From positions 62,001 through 126,000 of the forward strand of contig NZ_FOCX01000009.1 in the NCBI RefSeq assembly GCF_900110215.1: a stretch of 64,000 nt of DNA, given 5' to 3'. Positions 1,125 through 29,102 of the stretch are shown here, in pieces. Position 1 is the stretch's first letter. Each line of letters begins with the position of its first letter. The translations under genes and the position numbers were made by a program. The notes below the pieces were generated by a model that saw nothing but the letters and a program-made list of their open reading frames with translations, did no database searches and was not told where the DNA came from. The stretch comes from Halorientalis persicus. GTDB taxonomy: Archaea; Halobacteriota; Halobacteria; Halobacteriales; Haloarculaceae.

Positions 1125-1985
1125 ATGGCTCCTCCCCTGACTGGTCCCGTAGCGCGCGTCGAACCGCAGTGGTCCCATCACGAGTTCGTCGATGCAGTTC
1201 AGCCGACAGCAGTAATGTGTACGCTCAACGACGCCGAAACACTCGTCAAGCGGGGGGAGACAGCAGACACGTACTTCGGTTCCAAGCCGATCGTCATTAC
1301 AACGACGACCATGGCTGATCGGAAACTCACGCTCACGTCGTGGCAGTCCGAATTCGAGACGGTCGAAGCCTTCCAACCCGATTACCACATTCCCACGGAC
1401 GTTTCTGACTACGAGGACCTGCCAGCCGAGGAACGGGCCGAACGAATCCTCGAGTGCATGGACGGCACTCTCTGGATGGCGAACCGGATCACCGACGCCG
1501 GGCTGGACATCGACATTATCCCGTTGGTCAAAGGAAAAACAGCCCCAGAACGGCGGATTTGCTACAAAGCATTTGACCGCCTCGATGCCTCAATGGCTGC
1601 CTTCTACGCGGTTCGGTATTTCACGTCCGGCAACGGGAACCAGATTGCCGATCTCTACGAACACACCGAGGAAATCGCAGACGAGTATCCGATCAATCTC
1701 TTCTTGATCGGCTGTCTCAAGCCAAAGTACCTCTCGGACTGTGCCGATACCGTCACAGCGGCCGCCGGACAGAACCAGTGGCGAAACGTCGTCAAACCCC
1801 GCAAACAAGACGCCGAAACGATGCAAGCAACCTACAATGACTTGGCCAGCTCTGTTCGCGATGGACTCGATGTTAGCCGGCTTCGGCCAGAGAACGATCC
1901 GTTCTCCGACGCCGAAGTGACGCCCGACAGCGATGCACCAGTTGCAGCTGACCGCGATCCCGCCGCAACGGAGGTTGGTGACTAA
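1125..1985 (+). CDS. Hypothetical protein, possibly a TIM-barrel TGT/DpdA-like enzyme
   Basis: This 286-residue protein has its own TATA-like TTTTAATACG 25-34 nt upstream. Its order of elements recalls a TIM barrel of the tRNA-guanine transglycosylase class: PTDVSDYEDLP near residue 90, IIPLVKGKT near 127, AFYAVRYFTSGNG near 155, and LFLIGCLKPKYLSD near 185 followed by a glycine/aspartate-poor AAAGQNQW. DpdA, the DNA-modifying TGT paralogue of viruses and islands, has this layout. The usual TGT nucleophile motif is not obvious, and no preQ0-synthesis gene is nearby, so this is a guess rather than an identification. The last 30 residues are a disordered acidic tail. The stop overlaps the next start (TAATG), indicating co-translation with the zinc-ribbon gene. 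Confidence 0.55.
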   Translation: MAPPLTGPVARVEPQWSHHEFVDAVQPTAVMCTLNDAETLVKRGETADTYFGSKPIVITTTTMADRKLTLTSWQSEFETVEAFQPDYHIPTDVSDYEDLPAEERAERILECMDGTLWMANRITDAGLDIDIIPLVKGKTAPERRICYKAFDRLDASMAAFYAVRYFTSGNGNQIADLYEHTEEIADEYPINLFLIGCLKPKYLSDCADTVTAAAGQNQWRNVVKPRKQDAETMQATYNDLASSVRDGLDVSRLRPENDPFSDAEVTPDSDAPVAADRDPAATEVGD

Positions 1986-2395
1986 TGGGAACCCCTCTAT
2001 CGAAGTGTCCCTACTGCGGGTTCGAGCCCGGCTCGCCATCTGCCCAACGAGGACAGACCCAGAGCGGCAGTGGCTACAATCCATCCCAAACAGCAGCTAC
2101 CGAACGCACCGACCCGGCATCAGATCGGACTCGTCGGGATCAACAACGTCGCGAACAGCAGATGCGAGAGGAGTCCAGTGGCTCGCGCTGGATCGCCAAA
2201 CCAACGAGTACGCCCGCTGGAAACAGTGATATCAAGCAGTACAAGTGTCCCGAGTGTGGGAATCTCGTCCGGCCAGAACAGATGGACACGATCGACGACG
2301 AGAGCGATGGAAGCCCCGATGTCGACGTCGAGATTCCCGACGCTCTCCGGTTTGACGACCGACTGGACGACGAAACGGAGACGGAAACGGAGTAG
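1985..2395 (+). CDS. Double zinc-ribbon protein
   Basis: This 136-residue protein has two CxxC knuckles far apart. The N-terminal one is CPYCGF (residues 8-11) and the second is CPECGN (near 86), separated by a Ser/Gln/Arg-rich disordered segment containing RRDQQRREQQ. The layout suggests two independent half-ribbons or one split treble-clef ligand set that binds nucleic acid or a protein partner. The C-terminus is very acidic (DDETETETE). It overlaps the preceding gene by one base and lies 8 nt before the next, so genes 1125-4194 form an operon. No enzymatic motif is present. Confidence 0.65.
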   Translation: MGTPLSKCPYCGFEPGSPSAQRGQTQSGSGYNPSQTAATERTDPASDRTRRDQQRREQQMREESSGSRWIAKPTSTPAGNSDIKQYKCPECGNLVRPEQMDTIDDESDGSPDVDVEIPDALRFDDRLDDETETETE

Positions 2396-2403
2396 TACTC
2401 GCC

Positions 2404-4194
2404 ATGGCACACAAATCCCGATCTCGGTCCTCTACAAGTACTGTCGACGGGAGCCGTAGCGATGCACCAGATCGGGACGGAGACGCGCCAGACGAAGACG
2501 ACGAGCAAGCCCAACTTGATCGGGCGGAGTTCCGTGCTGACGCACAAGCCGACATTGCTGAAGCAGCGGCAGAAGACGACACAGACGCCGCCGAGCGGAG
2601 TGGCCACAGTCCAGAAGACGTAGACTCCCCCTACGCTGAAGGCTGGGACAAACACCAAGCTGCCAGGTCACGGGAGAACGGGGGCGAGATTGAGATATCG
2701 AACACGGGGCACGCCCCCGCTCCCGACCGTGATGCTGGGACTGCCAAGACCGCCCGTCGCGACTACCGAGAGAATATGCTCTCGGACGAGCCGCTCGAAC
2801 CCCAAGACCCTAACGTCGAACTCGTCATTTCTCGCGAACAGGAGCAAGACCGGGGCGGCGGTAGCCCCGCCGATCGCATGGCGGCACAGGACCCCTCGTT
2901 TGGGGAATCCGGCTACGGTCTCGGAATTGACGATGCCGAACAGGTGTTCGCTGCTCCCGACGTCGAAGAGATGCTCAAACCGGAGACTGAGAGTCTCGCT
3001 GGGGCTCTCCCGAGCGACATCGATAAGCCCTCCTGGACGCGCGCCAAGCAGGAAGAAGCACTTGGCAAGCAGAAACTCGAACTCAAACGCCGGGCAACAG
3101 CTGCCACCGTGGCCGACGCCGACCACGACCGAGCGGTCGCCGCTCGCGATGAAATCGTCGACGATACTCGCACCAACCGCGCCGAGCGCGAAGAACGGCT
3201 GGTTGAGCCCGAGCCAGACTGGGATACCGACGACTGGATCGAGCCAGTCGCAGATGTGGTCGATCCCGAACCGGACCCAGTGTCGGCACAGATCGACCCC
3301 GCCGAACTGCAGTCCACCGCTGAATTGCTCACCGAGCAGTTCCCCTCGTTGGAGGAAGACCAAGCTGGCCAGATCCTCTACGAGATGGCCCAGTCCGGAA
3401 TCGATCCCCAGCGCGGGGCCATGATCCTCTCAGAACGGCGCGGATCGCTCCGGATTCCCGACACCGTCGTCCCACTGGAAGGGCTCTCTTCGCAGGACAA
3501 GTGGGGCAAAAGCCCCTCCGACGGGTCGCCAAAGGTACGTGGCGAGGTCGTCGGCGCGTTCGAGCCAAATGATCCCGACACCCAACATCAGGTACTCGTC
3601 ATTCAGGACCAGTGGGGCGGCCGGTCCAAAGTGACGCTGTTCAACGGCTCGAAAGAGAGTGATGCCGGAGCGCCCTCATTCTCAGGCGGCCGTGCCACCG
3701 GCTTCGATATCGGTCGCGAAGAGGACGCTTCTGGTCTGGTTGAGGGTGAGCGGTACAAGAAAGGCGACGTGATCGAACTGGAAAACTTCGTAACGTCCGA
3801 GCTTGGCGCCACGACAACTAGTGAGTCAGGCGGTCCCGCCGAACGAACACACACGACAGGTCGTGTCGCCGTCGTTGCGACCTCCAATACAACCGTCCGT
3901 CGGGTTGAGGCTGGGGACGCTGATACGCCCACTGCCCCGACCGGCTTTGGCGGCAACTCCGTCCGCTCGTTCAAATCATCAGGGAGTAACTGGAGTAAAC
4001 CGCAAACCCAAGAGTCCGGTAGTTGGGCCATGGCCAGTAATCCCGACTACAGCGACACCTCCCGGGCGCTTCGGCGGCGGGAACGAAAAAGCAAGAAAGA
4101 AGGTCGGATCAGTGGCCGGACGCTCCTCGCGGACGAAGCAGAGGAAAGTGGTACCGATACAGATGTTGACGACCCCCACCACAATATGGCCTGA
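2404..4194 (+). CDS. Large acidic protein with probable OB-fold domain
   Basis: This 596-residue protein begins with about 280 residues of low-complexity, highly charged sequence. Around residues 300-345 is a UBA-like helical segment (LTEQFPSLEEDQAGQILYEM). Residues about 380-500 look like a nucleic-acid-binding OB fold: VRGEVVGAFEP, QVLVIQDQWGG, SKVTLFNG, YKKGDVIELENF and GRVAVVATSNT are successive strands, as in RPA-type single-strand binding proteins. The C-terminus is basic (RRRERKSKKEGR). The role is inferred to be DNA or RNA binding within the island's replication or repair set. It is the last gene of the 1125-4194 operon. No catalytic motif is seen. Confidence 0.55.
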   Translation: MAHKSRSRSSTSTVDGSRSDAPDRDGDAPDEDDEQAQLDRAEFRADAQADIAEAAAEDDTDAAERSGHSPEDVDSPYAEGWDKHQAARSRENGGEIEISNTGHAPAPDRDAGTAKTARRDYRENMLSDEPLEPQDPNVELVISREQEQDRGGGSPADRMAAQDPSFGESGYGLGIDDAEQVFAAPDVEEMLKPETESLAGALPSDIDKPSWTRAKQEEALGKQKLELKRRATAATVADADHDRAVAARDEIVDDTRTNRAEREERLVEPEPDWDTDDWIEPVADVVDPEPDPVSAQIDPAELQSTAELLTEQFPSLEEDQAGQILYEMAQSGIDPQRGAMILSERRGSLRIPDTVVPLEGLSSQDKWGKSPSDGSPKVRGEVVGAFEPNDPDTQHQVLVIQDQWGGRSKVTLFNGSKESDAGAPSFSGGRATGFDIGREEDASGLVEGERYKKGDVIELENFVTSELGATTTSESGGPAERTHTTGRVAVVATSNTTVRRVEAGDADTPTAPTGFGGNSVRSFKSSGSNWSKPQTQESGSWAMASNPDYSDTSRALRRRERKSKKEGRISGRTLLADEAEESGTDTDVDDPHHNMA

Positions 4195-4420
4195 TCGAAC
4201 TTCATACAAACTGCTGAGGACTAACTGTCGCTTCAAGCCTGAACGTGTGGGTTCTCACCGCCGATGTTCAGTTATCAAATTCATTGGACTTCTCTGATAC
4301 TGTGCAAGATACAGGGCTCGTATTGTGAATCTGACTACGTGGTTGAGCCAAGCCGAATACGGATTTCCTCTCTAGAGCCTGCCATAGAAGCGTCATGTAC
4401 GAAGCAGCAGGGTGCGGAAA
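4195..4420. other. Intergenic stretch before the composite transposon
   Basis: About 225 nt without a convincing gene. It separates the end of the first island operon from the left ISH8-like copy. No hairpin terminator or conserved motif stands out. Confidence 0.4.
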
Positions 4421-4430
4421 GTGTGTCCAA
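4421..4430 (+). repeat. 10-bp target-site duplication, left copy
   Basis: GTGTGTCCAA directly abuts the outer end of the left ISH8-like copy. The identical 10-mer follows the outer end of the right copy at 12706-12715, in direct orientation. Neither IS copy has a matching repeat on its inner side. Confidence 0.8.
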
Positions 4431-5833
4431 CATTCATCTTTAGCTAAGCCTCACACCTCGGTTGCGTAGCAGTAGCGAGCGTCTCTTGTAAGATCGGTCG
4501 TTGTTTGTGGATCTTCTGTGCGTCTTCGATCAGTCGCTCCAACAGCGGCTGAGGCGAATAGCCGAGGTACTCACCGAGTTTGTGGAGGAGGAGCTGGGCG
4601 TGCGACCGGAAGGTCGCCGCCCAGCGTTCCGGCGGAAACACGATCTCATCGTCGGCCTGCTCGGTGACTAGATCCAACAGCTCACGGCTCACCAGTAGTG
4701 ACAGCAACGCCGCGTACAGCAAAATTTCCACGACAACAGGGTTGGTCGTGTCGAATTCATCTAATTCGTACTGCGTCTTCAGCTCCCAGAACAGTACCTC
4801 TACCTCCCACCGGCATCGATACAGCGTCGCTAAGTCCGACGGCAAGAACTCCTCTCTCGGGAGGTTCGTGATGTACAAGTGGTAGTCGTCGGCGTCCTCG
4901 TCGCGGACGCCGACGACGCGGAACCGCTTCGTGTCCTGCGACTGAGTTCCCTCGTACTGACCCCGCTTGAACTCCGCTTCGACCTCAACGTCAACGTACT
5001 GCCGCGAGAGGTCATCGACCACATCGTGAATCTGCTCGTCTTCCAAGGGAATGGCGCGCCCGCGCCATTCCCGTAACTCCTCCGTTATCACCGGATTCGC
5101 GCTCTTCTTCAGCCGACTCACGAAGTAGCCGTCGTTCTCGTCGATCAACGCAAACCGGCGGTACTTGAAGTACGCCAGATCGAACAGAATGAGTCGGTCG
5201 CACAGCCACGAACCCGTCTTGAACAACGTGCTATCGTGCGTTTTCTCGTCGGTAACGTCGATGCGTTCAATCGTCTGTTCGGTGGCATTATGGAGCAGGT
5301 GGAGCTTCGCTCCAGCCTGCTCCTCGTGGCGGGCCTGGAACTCGTCAGAGAGGAACTCGTGCAGCCGCAACACGGTTCCATCAGCGATCATCACGTCCCT
5401 GAATCGGTCGATTTCAGCGTCAACAGCGTCAGGGACAGCGACCTCGTCGAGGCCGCGCTCGACGAGGTCGCGGAGGTACTCTGCGAGCGTCGGCGTCAAC
5501 CGGTGATAGAAGCCGCCGGGCGAGATCGGCTCGTCAGCTGTGGAGTTGTAGCTGCGTCTGAAGCCAGCGAGTGTTCGGCTCTCGCCTGCGGCGAAGCCGA
5601 ACACGAGCGCCCACACGAGGACAGGGATCTGGAGCTTGCCTTTTCGCTCGACCACGCCGAGTTCCTCGGCGTGCTCTTCGAGAAACTCGGAGGGAAACAG
5701 TGTAGTGAGCTGACGCATAATCCGAGATGAGGAGGTGTCGTTGTACACACTCGTCGCCTCCTCATTCCTCTCGAAAAGTAGCCTCGATAAGCCGCCGCTG
5801 TCACGTGGTTCTTCTCTTAGCTAAAGACGGATG
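4431..5833 (-). mobile_element. ISH8-like IS4-family element, left copy
   Basis: The terminal inverted repeats are CATTCATCTTTAGCTAAG at the left and the reverse complement of CATCCGTCTTTAGCTAAG at the right, 16 of 18 matching. One transposase gene fills the element. It has the same length as the copy at 11303. Confidence 0.8.
4444..5748 (-). CDS. IS4-family (ISH8-like) transposase
   Basis: This DDE transposase of 434 residues cuts and joins the IS ends. It shows the IS4 Y-(2)-R-(3)-E-(6)-K signature exactly, in YRCRWEVEVLFWELK near residue 320. The first catalytic aspartate is likely in MIADGTVLRL near residue 120. Reading from the GTG at 5748 gives MYND; the internal ATG at 5718 (MRQLTTLFPSEF) is an alternative start. 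It is over 90% identical by eye to the copy at 11388 and looks intact. It transcribes outward, toward the left end of the composite transposon. Confidence 0.85.
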   Translation of the reverse strand: MYNDTSSSRIMRQLTTLFPSEFLEEHAEELGVVERKGKLQIPVLVWALVFGFAAGESRTLAGFRRSYNSTADEPISPGGFYHRLTPTLAEYLRDLVERGLDEVAVPDAVDAEIDRFRDVMIADGTVLRLHEFLSDEFQARHEEQAGAKLHLLHNATEQTIERIDVTDEKTHDSTLFKTGSWLCDRLILFDLAYFKYRRFALIDENDGYFVSRLKKSANPVITEELREWRGRAIPLEDEQIHDVVDDLSRQYVDVEVEAEFKRGQYEGTQSQDTKRFRVVGVRDEDADDYHLYITNLPREEFLPSDLATLYRCRWEVEVLFWELKTQYELDEFDTTNPVVVEILLYAALLSLLVSRELLDLVTEQADDEIVFPPERWAATFRSHAQLLLHKLGEYLGYSPQPLLERLIEDAQKIHKQRPILQETLATATQPRCEA

Positions 5834-6181
5834 CTAACCAGCTTTGTGAGGTACTGAACCTGCTTCTCCTGGACCCTGATGCTCCACGATGACTCTGAGG
5901 AACGGTTTGAGATACTCGAAATTGTCGCCTCTTTCGATGGTGTCTGCTTCCCGACCCCAGTTGATGAACCCAGCATCATCGAGAAACGGAAAATGCACGT
6001 GATGTAGAGAGATCATGTACTCTGTCTCGCCCTCATCGTCTACAGTATCCGGTATAAACTCCTCTCTGCTGCGGGGATTATCCTGTGCAATCAGTAGTAG
6101 AATACGGCGACGGGTTACGTCGCTGAGAGCGTTTAGAATTTGGTCCACCATGACTGGTCCCAGGGTGAGTTTCTCTCCCAT
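5834..6181 (-). CDS. DUF7344-like winged-helix protein
   Basis: This 115-residue haloarchaeal winged-helix protein has the helix ILNALSDVTRRRILLLIAQ, then a long insertion, then MISLHHVHFPFLDDAGFINW, where the LHHVH..L...G pattern is typical of DUF7344-like regulators. A longer start at 6220 is possible, but the minus-strand TATA box at 6221-6230 would lie over it, so the ATG at 6181 is preferred. The stop codon touches the inner end of the left IS copy, so the original C-terminus may have been trimmed by the insertion. The likely role is a small transcription regulator that works with the sensor cargo. Confidence 0.65.
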   Translation of the reverse strand: MGEKLTLGPVMVDQILNALSDVTRRRILLLIAQDNPRSREEFIPDTVDDEGETEYMISLHHVHFPFLDDAGFINWGREADTIERGDNFEYLKPFLRVIVEHQGPGEAGSVPHKAG

Positions 6182-6514
6182 AGGTGGAGAAGCAGAGGGA
6201 TACGGATAAGCCGTATTCAAGATATTTTATCACCCTGGGACCCTGCTCTAAATTGATTTAATGCATTTACATACCCGATGGGAAGTTGAAATGCGCCTGC
6301 AATAACCAATGTAATCTTGAATAATGGAAATCTGTAAATGTTCCTTGATATATGGCCAGTGGATCGATGGCTACCCTCGCGTCCGGTTCTTGGCACAGAG
6401 TCGGTCAGTAAAGGCTGCGGCCATAACGACGGGAGCCAAGATGCAATGGTTTCGCAGTTATCGGTTCAACGTTTACCAAATAAGAGTTTTATCGGCCAGA
6501 ACATTTGGCCGTAT

Positions 6515-6814
6515 ATGGCTGATTCAGACAATGTCAGTGAGGAACAGGCAGATGTATACCATCGGAGCATCTTCGATAAGGCAGAGCAAAGTCCGGTACA
6601 GGAACTTGTGACCATTGTTGCGGAACTGAAAGGCGTCGAGCAGGACGAACTGGATCCGCTGTATTCGTGGGTTGATGGCTTAATAGATAGCCTGTATTCG
6701 TCACCACCGCCTGCCGAGGCACAGGGGATGGTTGAGTTCACATATGAGGGATATAGGATTACACTGTATCAGGACGGTCGGGCCATTTTCATGGGCCGAG
6801 GCTCCGCCGAATAG
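6515..6814 (+). CDS. HalOD1 output-domain protein
   Basis: This 99-residue protein consists mainly of a HalOD1 domain, a haloarchaeal signalling output module. Characteristic segments are SPVQELVTIVAELKGVEQDE, then DPLYSWVDGLIDSLY, and VEFTYEGYRITLYQDGRAIF at the end. The ATG at 6515 is chosen because the upstream reading has no coding character. Domains of this kind usually follow response-regulator or PAS modules. Here it stands alone, between the winged-helix gene and the sensor, so it may receive a signal from the 1271-aa protein encoded convergently. Confidence 0.75.
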   Translation: MADSDNVSEEQADVYHRSIFDKAEQSPVQELVTIVAELKGVEQDELDPLYSWVDGLIDSLYSSPPPAEAQGMVEFTYEGYRITLYQDGRAIFMGRGSAE

Positions 6815-6866
6815 CTGATCACTCTGTTCTGAGTATCCGTTGCAAAGCTCACGGTCAGTACGTACG

Positions 6867-9800
6867 CTAAGACGGTGTCTCGGCCGCTAGCAACGAGCCA
6901 AAGGCTTTCGCCTCGGCCTTTCTCAGGTGTTGATGGAACGTCGGTGGTGCTACCCCCAGCGAGTCGGCGAGTTCCTCACCAGAAACGTCCCGCGGCCAGC
7001 CGAAGAACCCCGCATGATAGGCGGCCTCAAGCGCGGCCCGCTGTTTCTCAGTCAGGTCAGCCAACAGTTTGCGCTGTATCCGTTGTGGGTCGGCGGCGGC
7101 GCGCGTAATCTGGCGTCGCCGGCGCATCTCAGCGGTCTGATACGCCGTTTCGACGACGTCGATGACACGGTGTACGTCGACGGTCGGTGCCAGGTGAATC
7201 CGGAGTTTGAAGTCGCCATCCGCGACGATGGCCTCTTCGACGTAGCCACCAAGAGAGGCAACCGTCGATAACACCGGTGGATCGCTCATCTGGAGTTCGA
7301 AGCGCAACGGATCACCATCATCGCGAAACTCGACCGACTCCCAGTAGTCGAGTACGTCGACGACATCGCGGACGGTCTCGACGGCACCTGGTGTCGCCGT
7401 CCCGTAGACGAGGAACTCGTCGCCGCCCAGAGGGACCGCGTGGTCGAGCGTGATTCGTTCGTTGGCCGGCATCGACACGTCCAGTTCGTCGAGAATTCCA
7501 TCCATGTGGAAGTCGAGTTCGACGAGTTCGTCGCTCATCAGCGCCTGCTTGCGCTCGGCGGAAGCGATGGCGTGGCCGACGATCTCGCCGAGCTGGCCGA
7601 TCACTTCCTTTTCGTGGCCTTCGAATGCAGTTGGTCGGTCTGCGTAGAGGCCGAGCAGCCCGTAGAGCGTGCCATTGTGGAGAATTGGAATAGCGGCCAT
7701 TGACCGGTAGCCATACGTTTTCGCCTGCTCCCGCCAGGGCTCGAAGTCGGGGTCGGTCAACGCGTTCTGGATCGTCTGTATCTCCCGTGTCCGAATTGCC
7801 TTGCCACCTGGCCCCTGTCCCGACGGCTCGTCCGGGTCCATCGAGGTGGGGACCTCCTCGAGGTAGCCCTCTACGCCAGCTTCGACGTGGGAATCGAGCG
7901 CCATCGTCTGGGGATCCACGTCGGCAATCCAGGCGAACTGGTAGGACTCTGACTCGGCCAGGCGCTCGCAGACAGTCGCCTCGATCTCCTCGCGTGTGGA
8001 CTGCTCAATGACAGCTTCCGTGATATCGCGTACGACTGCGTTCAAACTGTCGTGGGCGGCGAGTTCCTCATTGTTGCGGACGAGCCGGCGTTCGTGCTGG
8101 CGGCGTTCGATGGCCGTCGCGAGGATGGTCGCGACAGCCTGGACGAAGTCGACGTCTTGGTCAGAGAACTCCTTCGCCGTGGTGTCGTGAGTCCCGAGTA
8201 TGCCCCACGGGTCGTCGGACGGGCCGATGACGACACTGATGCCGCTTTTGACGTCGTGGTCCGTCAGCAGATCGGGCCCGGAAAACCGGGTCTCCGTCGT
8301 CAGGTCCTCGACGATCACCGGGTCGCGACTCTCTAGCGTATAGGCCGCCTGGGAATCGGCCTCGACGGCGGACACCGTCGCCGACCCGACGATGCCGTCG
8401 TCCCAGCCGACGCCCTGCCGGAGGAGGAGTTCGTCGGTGTCGCCGTCGAGGTCGAGCACTTTGCAGTACTCGTGGTCGAGCGCCTCGGCGATCATCTCTG
8501 CTGCCTCTGAAAACAACCCGTCGAGGTTCTCAATGTCGAGGGCGTCTTGCCCGAGGGTGGCAACCATTCTTTGCTGGCGGATGCGGCGTTTGAGTTCACG
8601 CTTGCGTTCCTTGCGCCCGCTGACGTCACGGACCACCCCACAACGACCGACGCGTCCGTCCTCATACTCGAATGGACCGAATCGGGATTCCACGGGCACG
8701 GTGTCACCGTCCGCAGTCTCGACCTCAAATTCAAGGACGCCCACTTCTCGATCGCCGGTGAGGACCTCCGATTCCAGTTCGTTTGCGGTCTCGTTCACCG
8801 CCTCGCTGTTTATGAGCGTCGGGTGTTCTCCGAGAATCTCCTCGCGGTCGTAACCGACGAGGTCACAGAACGCCTCGTTTACGAGCACAAAGTGATCGTT
8901 CTCATCGAGCGCGTATACGCCGTCCCAGACAGTCTCGACGAGTTGCTCGTACTGTTCGAGTCTCCGCTCGCGTTCCCTTCGCCGTGTAACGTCCCGCACA
9001 ACGCCGATGCGCTCGTGACCGCTGTCGGTCGCCATCACCGTGAAGGTCGCCTCACCGATCCACGGTTCCCCGTCCGGCCGCTGCAGTTCGGTTTCGAGCG
9101 TCGCCGAGTCTCTCTCCCCGTCGATCAGCTCCGCCTCAAGGCGTCTCGCCTGCTCCAGCGTCGACTCGTCGTCGATCACCGCTGAGACGTGGGCACCCTG
9201 GAGGGCATCTTTCGACCGGGCGACCATCGACGCATACTGGTCGTTGACGAGACTGAAGTAGCCGTCGTCGTCAACGATATACACTCCCTCGCTCATTGTC
9301 TCCACGACGCTGCGATAGCGTTCGAGTTCCTGCCGACGGTGCTTGCGCTCGGTGACGTCCCGGAAGTACACCGACAGGCCTGTCTCGGAGGGGTAGACGT
9401 GAGTCTCGAACCATGTCTCCATTGGTTCAGAATACTCCTCGAACGTCACCGACTCATCCGTTTCCAGGGCCGCCTCAAAGGCAGCCTCGGCCTTCAGACT
9501 GGGTTCGAGTGCGTCCCAGACGTGCTCGCCAATGAACTCGCTGGCGGCACGGTCGAACGCGTCTACCGCTTGGTCGTTGAGATGGACGAAACAGAGGTTC
9601 TTGTCCAGCGCAAAGAAGCCGTCGTCGATTCGCTCGAAAATCTCTCCCAGTTCGCTTTCCAGTTCGTCACGCTGGCGTCCGAGCTGTCGGGCTTGCGCCT
9701 TGAGTTGGGTGATATCCTCGCCTGCCACGACAACACGCTCGACCTCATCGTCCTCACCCTTCAGCGGGGCGGCATTCACCGTCAGCCAGCGGCGCCCCCC

Positions 9801-10682
9801 GTCGGGGTCTTCGATCTGACACTGCCACTCGTGTACAGACTCGCCGGTCGCGAACACCTGCGCGGAGGGCCGCTCTTCCGGGGGAACCGGGTCGCCATCT
9901 GCGTCGTAGAGCTGGCGGTCTTTGATCCGTGAGCCTTCCTTGGCGTCGTGTCCGCCGAGGATTACCTTCGCCCGTGTGCTCGTCTGGACGAGTTCACCCT
10001 CGGCGGTAACGATGCCGAGACCGACGGGAACCGTCTCGAGGATGCGCTCGACCAGGTCCCGCTCGCGACGGAGCTGCCGTTCTCTTTCGCGGCGATCGGT
10101 CATATCCCGGGTGACCTTTGCGAAGCCCTCCAGTTCGCCTTCGTCGTCGTAGATCGCCGTGATCGTCACGTTCGCCCAGAATTGCGTTCCGTCAGCGCGT
10201 ATGCGCCATCCCTCGTCCACGACGGAGCCGTCGCGGGCGGCCTGCGCGAGGTTCCGCTCAGGAACGCGGGCCTCGCGATCTTCCTCCGGGTAAAACGTCG
10301 AGAAGTGCTCGCCGACGATTTCTTCCTCGACGTAGCCCTTGATTTCCTCGGCCCCGGAATTCCACGTCCTGACGTACCCGTCGGGATCGAGCAGAAAGAT
10401 GGCATACTCCTCGACGGCGTCCACGAGGGAATGAAACTGTGGGTGTTTGTCTCCACCAGTACCGTCGTCATCAGACGGAGGTTGCCACCAGACACGGGCG
10501 TTTGCGCCCACCTTCTTCGTCCGCAAACGACCCTGGTCGACCAGCCGCTCGAGACGATCGTAGGTGCTCCGGCGGCCCAGGTCGAGTTCATTGGCGATCT
10601 CCGAGGTCGTCCGCGGCGCCACTGGGTTGTCAAAGAGGGCGAGTGTCTCCCGGAGTGCGCCCGTCAGTGCATTGTTTGCCAT
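6867..10682 (-). CDS. Bat-like multi-PAS/GAF transcriptional regulator
   Basis: This 1271-residue cytoplasmic sensor-regulator has the following order. A winged helix spans 1-60 (TSEIANELDLGRRSTYDRLE). Five PAS domains begin near 75, 210, 340, 460 and 585. A GAF domain lies at about 705-860 and a second at about 875-1040. A bacterio-opsin-activator region closes with HTH_10 near 1215-1265 (LTEKQRAALEAAYHAGFF...GVAPPTFHQHLRKAE). No histidine kinase is present, so signal sensed by PAS/GAF should act directly on DNA binding. The start at 10682 (MANNALTGAL) is taken at the first residue of the winged helix. The gene fills most of the cargo of the composite transposon. Confidence 0.85.
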   Translation of the reverse strand: MANNALTGALRETLALFDNPVAPRTTSEIANELDLGRRSTYDRLERLVDQGRLRTKKVGANARVWWQPPSDDDGTGGDKHPQFHSLVDAVEEYAIFLLDPDGYVRTWNSGAEEIKGYVEEEIVGEHFSTFYPEEDREARVPERNLAQAARDGSVVDEGWRIRADGTQFWANVTITAIYDDEGELEGFAKVTRDMTDRRERERQLRRERDLVERILETVPVGLGIVTAEGELVQTSTRAKVILGGHDAKEGSRIKDRQLYDADGDPVPPEERPSAQVFATGESVHEWQCQIEDPDGGRRWLTVNAAPLKGEDDEVERVVVAGEDITQLKAQARQLGRQRDELESELGEIFERIDDGFFALDKNLCFVHLNDQAVDAFDRAASEFIGEHVWDALEPSLKAEAAFEAALETDESVTFEEYSEPMETWFETHVYPSETGLSVYFRDVTERKHRRQELERYRSVVETMSEGVYIVDDDGYFSLVNDQYASMVARSKDALQGAHVSAVIDDESTLEQARRLEAELIDGERDSATLETELQRPDGEPWIGEATFTVMATDSGHERIGVVRDVTRRRERERRLEQYEQLVETVWDGVYALDENDHFVLVNEAFCDLVGYDREEILGEHPTLINSEAVNETANELESEVLTGDREVGVLEFEVETADGDTVPVESRFGPFEYEDGRVGRCGVVRDVSGRKERKRELKRRIRQQRMVATLGQDALDIENLDGLFSEAAEMIAEALDHEYCKVLDLDGDTDELLLRQGVGWDDGIVGSATVSAVEADSQAAYTLESRDPVIVEDLTTETRFSGPDLLTDHDVKSGISVVIGPSDDPWGILGTHDTTAKEFSDQDVDFVQAVATILATAIERRQHERRLVRNNEELAAHDSLNAVVRDITEAVIEQSTREEIEATVCERLAESESYQFAWIADVDPQTMALDSHVEAGVEGYLEEVPTSMDPDEPSGQGPGGKAIRTREIQTIQNALTDPDFEPWREQAKTYGYRSMAAIPILHNGTLYGLLGLYADRPTAFEGHEKEVIGQLGEIVGHAIASAERKQALMSDELVELDFHMDGILDELDVSMPANERITLDHAVPLGGDEFLVYGTATPGAVETVRDVVDVLDYWESVEFRDDGDPLRFELQMSDPPVLSTVASLGGYVEEAIVADGDFKLRIHLAPTVDVHRVIDVVETAYQTAEMRRRRQITRAAADPQRIQRKLLADLTEKQRAALEAAYHAGFFGWPRDVSGEELADSLGVAPPTFHQHLRKAEAKAFGSLLAAETPS

Positions 10683-10925
10683 TGTGCTCCGGAAGCATCC
10701 CAACGAATATGAAGACTCCGTCGTCGGAGAGTGGTTGAAAGACGCCACCTAATTTCACCAGGACATGAGTTGTAGACTTCCGATACCGAACCGGGTAGAA
10801 GTGGATAGCAACTGACTCCAGTTCCCGTCGCGGATACCTTACATTGTAGGCAATAGTACTACTGGCAGTGGTGCCCCTTGACAGAGTAGACCGGTTGAGG
10901 CCGGTTCGCTGAAGATGGAATCACT

Positions 10926-11240
10926 ATGAACCAGACTCAACAGTACAATTTGGAGACCTACGTAGGGACAGAGTCGTTAACTGAGGACGACTATCATCGA
11001 TTGATGGCGGTGAGGCGACGCCGGACGACGCTATCTGTCCTTGCCGTCTTAAGCGTCCCTATCGATCTTGAAGACCTCGCGGAGGCAGTCGTCAAATGGG
11101 AAGAAAACGAGGCTGCCATTGACGAGACCAGCATCGACCAGATCGAAATAGAACTGCATCACATCCATTTGCCGAAGATGGATAACCTCGACGTGATCGA
11201 TTATGATCGGGATAATAACCGTGTTGTGGCTTGGTCTTGA
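10926..11240 (+). CDS. DUF7344-like winged-helix protein
   Basis: This 104-residue protein shares the DUF7344-like pattern with the gene at 5834: VRRRRTTLSVLAVLSVPIDL as the helical start, and QIEIELHHIHLPKMDNLDVI as the LHH.HLP recognition segment. The C-terminal YDRDNNRVVAWS forms the wing. It is divergent from the PAS/GAF/Bat gene, with about 240 nt between. Both cargo ends therefore carry a small regulator of one family, which suggests that a regulatory module moved together. Confidence 0.7.
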   Translation: MNQTQQYNLETYVGTESLTEDDYHRLMAVRRRRTTLSVLAVLSVPIDLEDLAEAVVKWEENEAAIDETSIDQIEIELHHIHLPKMDNLDVIDYDRDNNRVVAWS

Positions 11241-11302
11241 GACCGCCTAGTCCCTGTTTCTCGTTCAGGATCTACTCGACGAATTTGCAGTTAATGAGAC
11301 GG

Positions 11303-12705
11303 CATCCGTCTTTAGTTAGGAGATGAATCGCTGTACGGCGGTAGCTTATCGAGGCTTCTTTTCGAGAGGAATGAGGAAGTCGAGTCTGTGTACAACCAGA
11401 CTTCCTCATCTCGCATTATGCGTCGGCTCACTACACTGTTTCCCTCCGAGTTCCTCGAAGAGCACGCCGAGGAACTCGGCGTGGTCGAACGCGACCGCAA
11501 GCTCCAGATTCCCGCCTTCGTCTTGGCATTCGTGTTCGGCTTCGCCGCAGGCGAAAGCCGAACACTCGCAGGGTTTCGACGCAGCTACAACTCGACAGCT
11601 GACGAGCCGATCTCACCGGGTGGGTTCTATCAGCGGTTGACGCCGACGCTCGCGGAGTACCTCCGCGACCTCGTCGAGCACGGTCTCGACGAGGTCGCTG
11701 TTCCCGACGTTGTTGAGGTTGACATCGACCGATTCAGTGATGTGATGATCGCTGATGGAACAGTGCTGCGGTTGCACGAGTTCCTCTCTGATGAGTTCCA
11801 AGCCCGTCACGAGGAGCAGGCTGGAGCGAAGCTCCACCTGCTCCACAATGCGACTGAGCAGACGATTGAACGGATCGACGTGACCGACGAGAAAACGCAC
11901 GACAGCACGCTGTTCAAGACTGGTTCGTGGCTGCAAGGACGGCTAGTTCTGCTCGACCTAGCGTACTTCAAGTACCGCCGCTTCGCGTTGATTGACGAGA
12001 ACAACGGCTACTTCGTGAGTCGGCTGAAGCAGAACGCAAATCCGGTGATAACGGCGGAATTACGGGAATGGCGCGGCCGCGCCATTCCCTTGGAAGGCGA
12101 GCAGATCCAGGATGTGGTCGGTGATCTCACACGGAAGTACATCGACGTAGAGGTCGAAGCGGAGTTCAAGCGAGGTCAGTACGAGGGAACTCGGTCGCTG
12201 GACACGAAGCGGTTCCGCGTCGTCGGCGTCCGCAACGAGGACGCCGACGACTACCATCTCTACATCACGAATCTGCCAAGAGAGGAGTTCCTCCCGGCGG
12301 ATCTAGCAACGCTGTATCGGTGTCGATGGGAGGTAGAAACGTTGTTCCGTGAGCTGAAGACGCAGTACGAACTGGACGAATTCGACACAAGCAACCCAGA
12401 TGTGGTGAAAATTCTGCTGTACGCGGCGTTGCTGTCGCTGTTAGTGAGCCGTGAGCTGTTGGATCTGGTCACCGAGCAAGCCGACGATGAGATCGTGTTC
12501 CCGCCGGAACGCTGGGCGGCGACCTTTCGGTCGCACGCCCAGCTCATCCTCCACGAACTCGGTGAGTACCTCGGCTACTCACCACCGCCGCTGTTGGAGC
12601 GGCTGATCGAAGACGCGCAGAAGATCCACCAGCAACGACCAATACTGCAAGAGACGCTCGCTACCGCTACACAACCGAGGTGTGAGTCTTAGCTAAAGAC
12701 GAATG
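11303..12705 (+). mobile_element. ISH8-like IS4-family element, right copy
   Basis: The ends are CATCCGTCTTTAGTTAGG at the left and the reverse complement of CATTCGTCTTTAGCTAAG at the right. It is 1403 bp, exactly the length of the left copy and in inverted orientation to it. It is followed directly by the direct repeat GTGTGTCCAA. Confidence 0.8.
11388..12692 (+). CDS. IS4-family (ISH8-like) transposase
   Basis: This 434-residue transposase is a near-identical partner of the left-copy enzyme. It has the same signature, YRCRWEVETLFRELK, satisfying Y-(2)-R-(3)-E-(6)-K. Differences are scattered substitutions (for example LCDRLILFDLAYF against LQGRLVLLDLAYF), so the two copies have diverged somewhat or arrived as slightly different lineages. 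The start is read from GTG 11388, with ATG 11418 as the alternative. Both copies appear functional, which would allow mobilisation of the whole cassette. Confidence 0.85.
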   Translation: MYNQTSSSRIMRRLTTLFPSEFLEEHAEELGVVERDRKLQIPAFVLAFVFGFAAGESRTLAGFRRSYNSTADEPISPGGFYQRLTPTLAEYLRDLVEHGLDEVAVPDVVEVDIDRFSDVMIADGTVLRLHEFLSDEFQARHEEQAGAKLHLLHNATEQTIERIDVTDEKTHDSTLFKTGSWLQGRLVLLDLAYFKYRRFALIDENNGYFVSRLKQNANPVITAELREWRGRAIPLEGEQIQDVVGDLTRKYIDVEVEAEFKRGQYEGTRSLDTKRFRVVGVRNEDADDYHLYITNLPREEFLPADLATLYRCRWEVETLFRELKTQYELDEFDTSNPDVVKILLYAALLSLLVSRELLDLVTEQADDEIVFPPERWAATFRSHAQLILHELGEYLGYSPPPLLERLIEDAQKIHQQRPILQETLATATQPRCES

Positions 12706-12715
12706 GTGTGTCCAA
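12706..12715 (+). repeat. 10-bp target-site duplication, right copy
   Basis: GTGTGTCCAA is identical to 4421-4430. A related 10-mer, GTGTATCGAA (8 of 10), follows the adjacent MITE at 12939-12948. Confidence 0.8.
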
Positions 12716-12716
12716 T

Positions 12717-12938
12717 CATCCATCTTTAGCTAATACTTACTGTAATACTATCTAGCCGTGATATTCGGCCGAATTTTAGCTCGAACACACGCCAAAACGC
12801 CGAAGAAACCACCACTCAATGTTTCTTATCGCCAGGTTTCACGATGAAAAGTGCCTCACCGGCTGGAATTGTCCTCCTAACATTTTAGTTATATTTTCTG
12901 CATTGAATATTACTATCAGTCTTAGCAAAAGACGAATG
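12717..12938. mobile_element. 222-bp MITE with ISH8-like ends
   Basis: The left end CATCCATCTTTAGCTAAT and the reverse complement of the right end, CATTCGTCTTTTGCTAAG, match the terminal repeats of the flanking ISH8-like elements. The interior is A+T-rich, has no transposase sequence and no gene. It lies one base beyond the composite transposon's target duplication. It was probably mobilised in trans by the ISH8-type transposase. Confidence 0.6.
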
Positions 12939-13070
12939 GTGTATCGAAGAGACGGAACACATGCCGGAGTGATGCGCTTCATCCCACCCACGGTGAGGCG
13001 GGGAACTTGCGCTGTTTTTCTATCCCTTCGTTTCGACGAGGATAGTTCAGCCGATGATGTATTCTCCTTG

Positions 13071-28294: not shown

Positions 28295-29102
28295 CACGGC
28301 TATCCCAATTTTCTACAAGACAACAAATCTCGACACTGGTGAACCGTTCAACGCACGGGCCTTCCTCAGCAATGCTGTCGGCCAGATCGAAGCCCGTCTC
28401 GATATCGAACCAGGGGACTTCCCCCCAGCGGTCCCCGATGACGAGGTCGGAGAAGCGGTACTAGAGCAGACGGCCAACGCCCAGACCAACGGTAGTAGCC
28501 AACTCCCTTCGACACTCACAGAGCAGACGTTCTTGATCGAGTACTGCGCGTCCAAACACCCACTCCGTGCCGCCATCGCAACGGATCAGCTCACCGACCA
28601 CGCCGACGGGCCAGTGAGAGACGTGCTTCCGGACCTGACCACCGGAGTGCTTCGTGAGACGGTTCGGTGCGAACTCGGTGTGCAGGACGACTTCCCGGAA
28701 GTAATGCTCGAGTCGCAGTCACCGCCTGATCCGCTTCACGTTGACCCCCTGATGATGGTCGGGTCGCTCTGTGCAACGGCAAATGCAGTCGAAATCCGTT
28801 CGGACGAAGACACCGATCGGGACAAACTTGCAGACGACCTCGTTTCGATATTCGCTCCCCAACTCGGGAATTTCTCACTTACGGGGCAGATGTGGATGTA
28901 CGAGGAAATCGGTGCAACGGAGGCCCGTGCTTACCTGTCTCATTACCAGTCGCCAATTCCCTCTGACCAGTTTCTCACGGATATGCTCAGGGAAGAAAAC
29001 GCTCTCGGAACGTACGTCTGGGAAGTCCTTGGACACACGCTCCGAGAACTCCTAGCCCATCCAGAAGCACGACAGGCCGTGATCGACGCCGGGGAGTGGT
29101 GA
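28284..29102 (+). CDS. Hypothetical protein, mostly helical
   Basis: This 272-residue helical protein has no family I recognise. Representative segments are FNARAFLSNAVGQIEARLDI, LTEQTFLIEYCASKHPLRAA and LGTYVWEVLGHTLRELLAHP. It contains an acidic, proline-containing patch in the first 60 residues. No metal site, nucleotide loop, signal or membrane stretch is evident. It sits in the middle of an operon with the coiled-coil protein (11-nt overlap upstream) and the cysteine-rich protein (2 nt downstream). Confidence 0.6.
   Translation: MQSSTAIPIFYKTTNLDTGEPFNARAFLSNAVGQIEARLDIEPGDFPPAVPDDEVGEAVLEQTANAQTNGSSQLPSTLTEQTFLIEYCASKHPLRAAIATDQLTDHADGPVRDVLPDLTTGVLRETVRCELGVQDDFPEVMLESQSPPDPLHVDPLMMVGSLCATANAVEIRSDEDTDRDKLADDLVSIFAPQLGNFSLTGQMWMYEEIGATEARAYLSHYQSPIPSDQFLTDMLREENALGTYVWEVLGHTLRELLAHPEARQAVIDAGEW

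Follow-up and report, generated by a model that had tools for sequence, protein, structure and literature searches.

Two complete ISH8-type insertion sequences, ISL and ISR, are present in inverted orientation in the 64-kb window, which is the whole stretch of DNA that was analysed. They enclose about 5.5 kb of cargo that is not insertion sequence and that contains the gene of a Bat-like regulator, a DUF7344 gene, a gene of a HalOD1 protein, and a DUF7344-type ORF (Table 1). The segment limited by the outer ends of ISL and ISR, positions 4431-12705, is 8,275 bp long (approximately 8.3 kb). The coordinates and the inverted arrangement of the two 1403-bp copies given in an earlier, sequence-only reading of this DNA were confirmed. 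We correct this reading in one respect: the identity of the two copies is 88% (1234 of 1403 bases), which is less than near-identity.

Table 1 Features of the proposed composite unit and its surroundings, and the related unit of Halobacterium salinarum. Positions are those of the window unless a locus is named.
Feature	Position	Strand	Remarks
ISNpe2-like IS5-family left-end fragment, left target DNA	4375-4430	+	85% match to left end of a Halorientalis marina IS
Target duplication GTGTGTCCAA, left copy, 10 bp	4421-4430	.	
ISL, left ISH8-type insertion sequence, 1403 bp	4431-5833	-	88% to ISR; IS4 model NF033592
ISL transposase, 424 aa	4444-5718	-	D113/D180 and Y..R...E......K present
ISL inner flank CTAACCAGCT	5834-5843	.	
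DUF7344-type ORF, partial domain match	5834-6220	-	Pfam PF24035 at cut-off; stop codon abuts ISL
HalOD1 protein, 99 aa	6515-6814	+	Pfam PF18545; start codon chosen in the analysis
Bat-like regulator, 1271 aa	6867-10682	-	PAS repeats, two GAF, BAT, C-terminal HTH_10
DUF7344 gene	10926-11240	+	Divergent from Bat-like gene; pairing conserved in other genomes
ISR inner flank AATGAGACGG	11293-11302	.	
ISR, right ISH8-type insertion sequence, 1403 bp	11303-12705	+	
ISR transposase, 424 aa	11418-12692	+	Catalytic motifs intact
Target duplication GTGTGTCCAA, right copy, 10 bp	12706-12715	.	
ISH8-type MITE, ~222 bp	12717-12938	.	Copies in Halorubrum and Haloarcula plasmids
IS200/IS605 tnpA C-terminal-end remnant, right target DNA	12939-13020	+	85-86% to copies in genomes G005 and G007
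ISH8A-cargo-ISH8B unit	L173 (pHS3) 1419-5124; L174 (pHS2) 1495-5655		

Insertion sequences and cargo genes

The outward-facing end of each insertion sequence is the 3' end of its transposase gene. Both elements have intact CAT...ATG termini and encode transposases of the DDE type (PF01609), which score far above the cut-off of the IS4 model NF033592 and contain D113, D180, and the Y..R...E......K motif at residue 300. Members of the ISH8 subgroup of the IS4 family are 1400-1800 bp long and have CAT ends, 10-bp duplications, and a YREK motif (PMC2266710). ISL and ISR belong to this subgroup, as shown by their length of 1403 bp, CAT...ATG termini, YREK motif, and relatives with 10-bp duplications. 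The two transposases are identical in 382 of 424 residues. Codon differences between them are mostly synonymous (88, versus 42 non-synonymous), which suggests constraint and fits selection for function.

In a tree of 90 elements, ISL and ISR are not sisters, and ISR is placed outside a supported set of 34 elements that includes ISL. The 88% identity and the unpaired positions in the tree indicate that ISL and ISR represent two lineages and rule out that the unit originated from the recent duplication of one insertion sequence. ISL and ISR have diverged and have a mosaic structure: over its first 100 bp, ISL is 98% identical to the C86 copy. The longest exact stretch common to ISL and ISR is 38 bp, and the longest that either of them has in common with other full copies in the genome is 71 bp. 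Therefore, a misassembly caused by the repeats is unlikely.

The Bat-like protein is a predicted regulator of the bacterio-opsin activator type, with matches to PF15915 (7.5e-33) and PF04967 (6.1e-21) and several PAS and GAF domains. A possible helix-turn-helix domain at its N-terminus (HTH_20) scores below the cut-off. The match of the HalOD1 protein to the DdfA family of disk-determining factors is also sub-threshold (38 bits; cut-off, 70 bits). The cargo genes are presumably expressed. Matches to the cargo occur in many genomes and involve mainly the Bat-like ORF, which is matched piecewise and with low DNA identity; no close DNA-level relative of the cargo was found in the searched genomes. 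Among the retrieved loci that contain both genes, the Bat-like and DUF7344 genes are on opposite strands in 11, of which, counted by eye from the coordinates, ten appear divergent and one (L180) convergent. The two genes may constitute a conserved functional pair, as their arrangement suggests. DUF7344 genes adjoin Bat-like genes, mostly in divergent orientation, in many haloarchaeal genomes (L175-L193; window positions 6867-11240).

Borders of the unit and flanking DNA

The 10-mer GTGTGTCCAA is present, without mismatch, at both outer borders of the unit. The inner 10-mers, CTAACCAGCT next to ISL and AATGAGACGG next to ISR, match neither each other nor GTGTGTCCAA, in agreement with the sequence-only reading, which had located the identical 10-mer at the outer borders only. 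The locus thus has two hallmarks of a composite transposon: two related complete insertion sequences around cargo other than insertion sequence, and a target duplication restricted to the outer borders. The 4.87-Mb genome contains six copies of GTGTGTCCAA, two of which are the unit borders. Another one, on the - strand at position 29029 of the window, is unrelated. The copy in contig C57 is part of a 5' fragment of an ISH8 element and was taken as a chance variant.

ISH8 elements generate 10-bp repeats and have no apparent target specificity (PMC2266710). The 10-mers of 36 haloarchaeal ISH8 copies with strict 10-bp duplications are all different, with a weak base preference, and two single ISH8 copies elsewhere in the genome of the unit are each enclosed by a separate 10-bp duplication, CCACGAAGAC and GTTGACCAAC. 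The probability that two independent insertions have an identical 10-mer ranges from 1.1e-6, for opposite orientation, to 4.4e-6. The possibility that GTGTGTCCAA is a target hot-spot was rejected, since it is not preferred (position weight matrix score of 0.3, and -3.5 in the other orientation).

The left target DNA is the ISNpe2-like fragment, whose relative in Halorientalis marina reads on as ...GTGTGTCCAACACAAG and aligns to ISNpe2. The right flank is not a continuation of this IS5-type element. Instead, it consists of a single T, the MITE, and the tnpA remnant. Therefore, the target was rearranged, either before or after the insertion. The MITE, which was missed in the sequence-only reading, is separated from the right copy of GTGTGTCCAA only by the T. 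It is not enclosed by an exact duplication of its own, its flanks being TGTGTCCAAT and GTGTATCGAA; an intact copy in genome G002 has the 10-bp duplication CTGATCATGG. The ten bases to the right of the MITE, GTGTATCGAA, agree with GTGTGTCCAA at eight of ten positions, with a chance probability of about 4e-4 per register. Because the MITE is bordered by remnants of unrelated insertion sequences without an exact duplication, it probably marks an older rearrangement. In the simplest reading, the rearranged junction would already have been marked by the MITE when the composite inserted beside it.

The genes at window positions 13801-40000 are mostly on one strand; their products include a transposase, a helicase, an AAA ATPase, a VWA protein, and a PCNA-like sliding clamp. 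Since sliding-clamp genes of this sort occur on haloarchaeal megaplasmids, the unit possibly resides on a plasmid or in an integrated element. A region with an ISNpe2-like insertion sequence on a Halorientalis marina plasmid (L170, positions 4500-5900) recurs on plasmids of Natronomonas marina and Halorarius halobius with 99.9-100% identity over 1.4 kb, which suggests recent transfer.

Probable movement of the unit and alternative histories

Pairs of ISH8 elements with other histories served as controls. Two independently inserted copies located approximately 17 kb apart in genome G008 (L194) have both kept their own duplications. In genome G067 (L196), where an inversion occurred, one inner flank is the reverse complement of one outer flank. 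Two ISH8B copies of pHS3 (L173 and L213) have exchanged flanks, and a similar exchange was found in genome G022 (L202 and L203). The signatures of all these pairs are unlike that of positions 4421-12715. The sequence-only reading had argued that independently inserted copies would each have their own repeats, as is the case in L194, and that an inversion between the copies would leave different 10-mers outside, for which L196, L173/L213, and L202/L203 served as the controls.

The near-random targets of ISH8, the individual duplications of single copies, and the different signatures of the controls indicate movement of the entire unit in one piece. We propose that positions 4431-12705 constitute a composite transposon of the ISH8 subgroup of the IS4 family, mobilised as one unit, and assign this a probability of about 0.88. 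The transposition most likely took place, as deduced from the anatomy of the locus. Movement as a whole, which was already suspected from the sequence, is thus supported by the target statistics, the single copies, the control pairs, and the precedent of the Halobacterium salinarum plasmid pHS2 described below. An ISH8 transposase would pair the two outermost ends of the unit, the 3' end of ISL and that of ISR. The 8,275-bp segment would then be excised and inserted at GTGTGTCCAA by a cut-and-paste mechanism, with GTGTGTCCAA as the staggered 10-bp target that would be duplicated in the process. At the inner borders, CTAACCAGCT and AATGAGACGG would be relics of the earlier insertions of the individual elements; for CTAACCAGCT, an origin in ISL's own earlier duplication is probable by analogy with pHS3 and pHS2. 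Three observations speak against this proposal: neither an empty site nor a second copy of the cargo was detected in the searched sequences, the right flank does not continue the IS5-type element of the left, and the insertion sequences are diverged by 12%, so that one transposase may or may not act well on both ends.

Other histories of the locus differ in which events they require. It is very unlikely that two ISH8 elements inserted independently into the same 10-mer, with the inner copies of the duplications lost later by deletion or another change. Insertions of the ISH8 type can cluster, since the ISH8B and ISH2 sites in H. salinarum strains are 11 bp apart (PMC10264941), and the MITE lies within one base of the right GTGTGTCCAA. 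However, identical 10-mers would be expected with a probability of only about 1-4e-6, two deletions would be required, each ending exactly at the inner end of an insertion sequence, and the genuine independent pair of L194 retains both of its duplications. It is very unlikely, too, that a composite-like unit inserted with a different interior, or that homologous recombination through the insertion sequences replaced its interior afterwards, so that the regulator cargo did not travel with it. The divergence and mosaic structure of ISL and ISR imply gene conversion or recombination between insertion sequences, signatures of which are common among ISH8 relatives, but this history needs an extra event, and a related structure with another interior was not seen.

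An inversion or the integration of a plasmid by homologous recombination between ISH8 copies, without transposition of the unit, is hardly conceivable. Such events are real in ISH8 elements, as documented by L196 in G067 and L173/L213 in pHS3. However, an inversion would place different 10-mers outside the pair, and the integration of a circle would result in direct repeats with matching inner flanks, whereas here the copies are inverted, the outer flanks are equal, and the inner flanks are unequal. With a transposase 3' end at each outer border, recombination into a single pre-existing insertion sequence is excluded by geometry.

The search for an empty site with joined flanks in eight Halorientalis genomes gave no match; the rearranged flanks alone are insufficient for this test. 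Junction patterns of an empty site were absent from viral contigs, as were proteins related to those of the flanks. Neither an empty site nor another copy of the unit was detected in the eight genomes of the genus, 391 genomes of the class, plasmids, and viral contigs, a set limited to one genome per species.

Related composites and the regulator cargo

The plasmid pHS2 of H. salinarum R1 carries an ISH8A-cargo-ISH8B unit, in which the diverged insertion sequences are inverted, with their 3' ends outward. Each outer border of the unit has the 11-bp sequence GCGGTCTAGAG; its inner flanks do not match. The unit is inserted in ISH6, and intact copies of ISH6 with a single uninterrupted GCGGTCTAGAG represent a paralogous empty site. 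A second copy, on pHS3, has identical inner flanks and does not contain a 531-bp insert. In a table by Pfeiffer et al. (2023), the ISH8A/ISH8B unit is listed as a "4161 bp transposon cassette" with an 11 bp overlap against pHcu229 (PMC10264941). Judging from the flanks that L213 has exchanged, CTTCGAGGCGG seems to have been the first duplication of ISH8B itself and is now an inner flank. Together, the flank exchange in pHS3 and the 11-bp duplication in pHS2 allow the life history of a composite transposon that arose naturally in archaea to be read.

The pHS2/pHS3 unit resembles the one described here in its ISH8 subgroup, inverted diverged pair, outward 3' ends, and duplication at the outer borders only. 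It differs in its size of approximately 4.15 kb and in its cargo of hypothetical genes with an inserted 531-bp element, probably ISH2. Furthermore, it has an empty site and a second copy, neither of which was found for the 8,275-bp unit. In H. salinarum 63-R2, ISH2 and a partial ISH8A moved together in one 10-bp duplication (PMC10264941, special case A). Like ISL and ISR, these are two ISH8-type elements inside a common 10-bp duplication, but they are adjacent, without cargo, and one is a MITE and the other partial. According to its title, a study by Dyall-Smith and Doolittle (1994) dealt with composite transposons constructed for halophilic archaea (cited in PMC3235422), which are artificial, unlike the unit described here.

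Similarly to this unit, Tn5 (IS50) and Tn10 (IS10) consist of inverted cut-and-paste insertion sequences of the IS4 family, cargo, and a short outer duplication. They are bacterial, belong to the IS50 and IS10 subgroups, and have 8-9 bp duplications, near-identical insertion sequences, whose divergence is smaller than the 12% between ISL and ISR, and resistance cargo. In contrast, the unit described here is of the ISH8 subgroup and has a 10 bp duplication, insertion sequences diverged by 12%, and a regulator as cargo. The IS4-family membership and composite status of Tn5 and Tn10 are established (PMC2266710).

The pHS2/pHS3 unit, the 63-R2 pair, and the engineered transposons of 1994 make composite transposons an already known kind of element in haloarchaea. 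The sequence-only reading knew of no described composite transposon with a Bat-like regulator in haloarchaea; this seems to stand for the Bat-like cargo and not for the ISH8 composite, which has its precedent in pHS2. No description of an archaeal composite transposon with cargo of the Bat-like type was found in the open-licence literature. What is new here seems to be the Bat-like cargo only, since the mechanism and the architecture were already known. The Bat-like gene with its divergent DUF7344 neighbour is an ordinary haloarchaeal pair that appears to be mobilised here.

Beside pHS2, the unit would be a second clear natural case showing that diverged ISH8 pairs, arranged as in Tn5 and Tn10, can mobilise kilobases of haloarchaeal host DNA. 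This suggests one route by which the many haloarchaeal Bat-like regulators could reach plasmids and other replicons. We tentatively speculate that the unit, as a composite transposon occurring naturally in an archaeon, carries a complete sensor/transcription-factor module, by which a regulatory circuit spreads between replicons, although this is rather doubtful. If it were true, a regulatory circuit would be spreading, and not a resistance or metabolic gene.

The loci L106/L074 were considered as a composite and rejected, since they contain an ISH8 inside another element with ISH8 ends. In Natronococcus jeotgali (L141, positions 4491-9504), an ISH8-type pair in direct orientation, the first element of which is interrupted, is enclosed by two copies of GAAGTAAACC, and its inner flanks do not match; this pair is a possible further composite.
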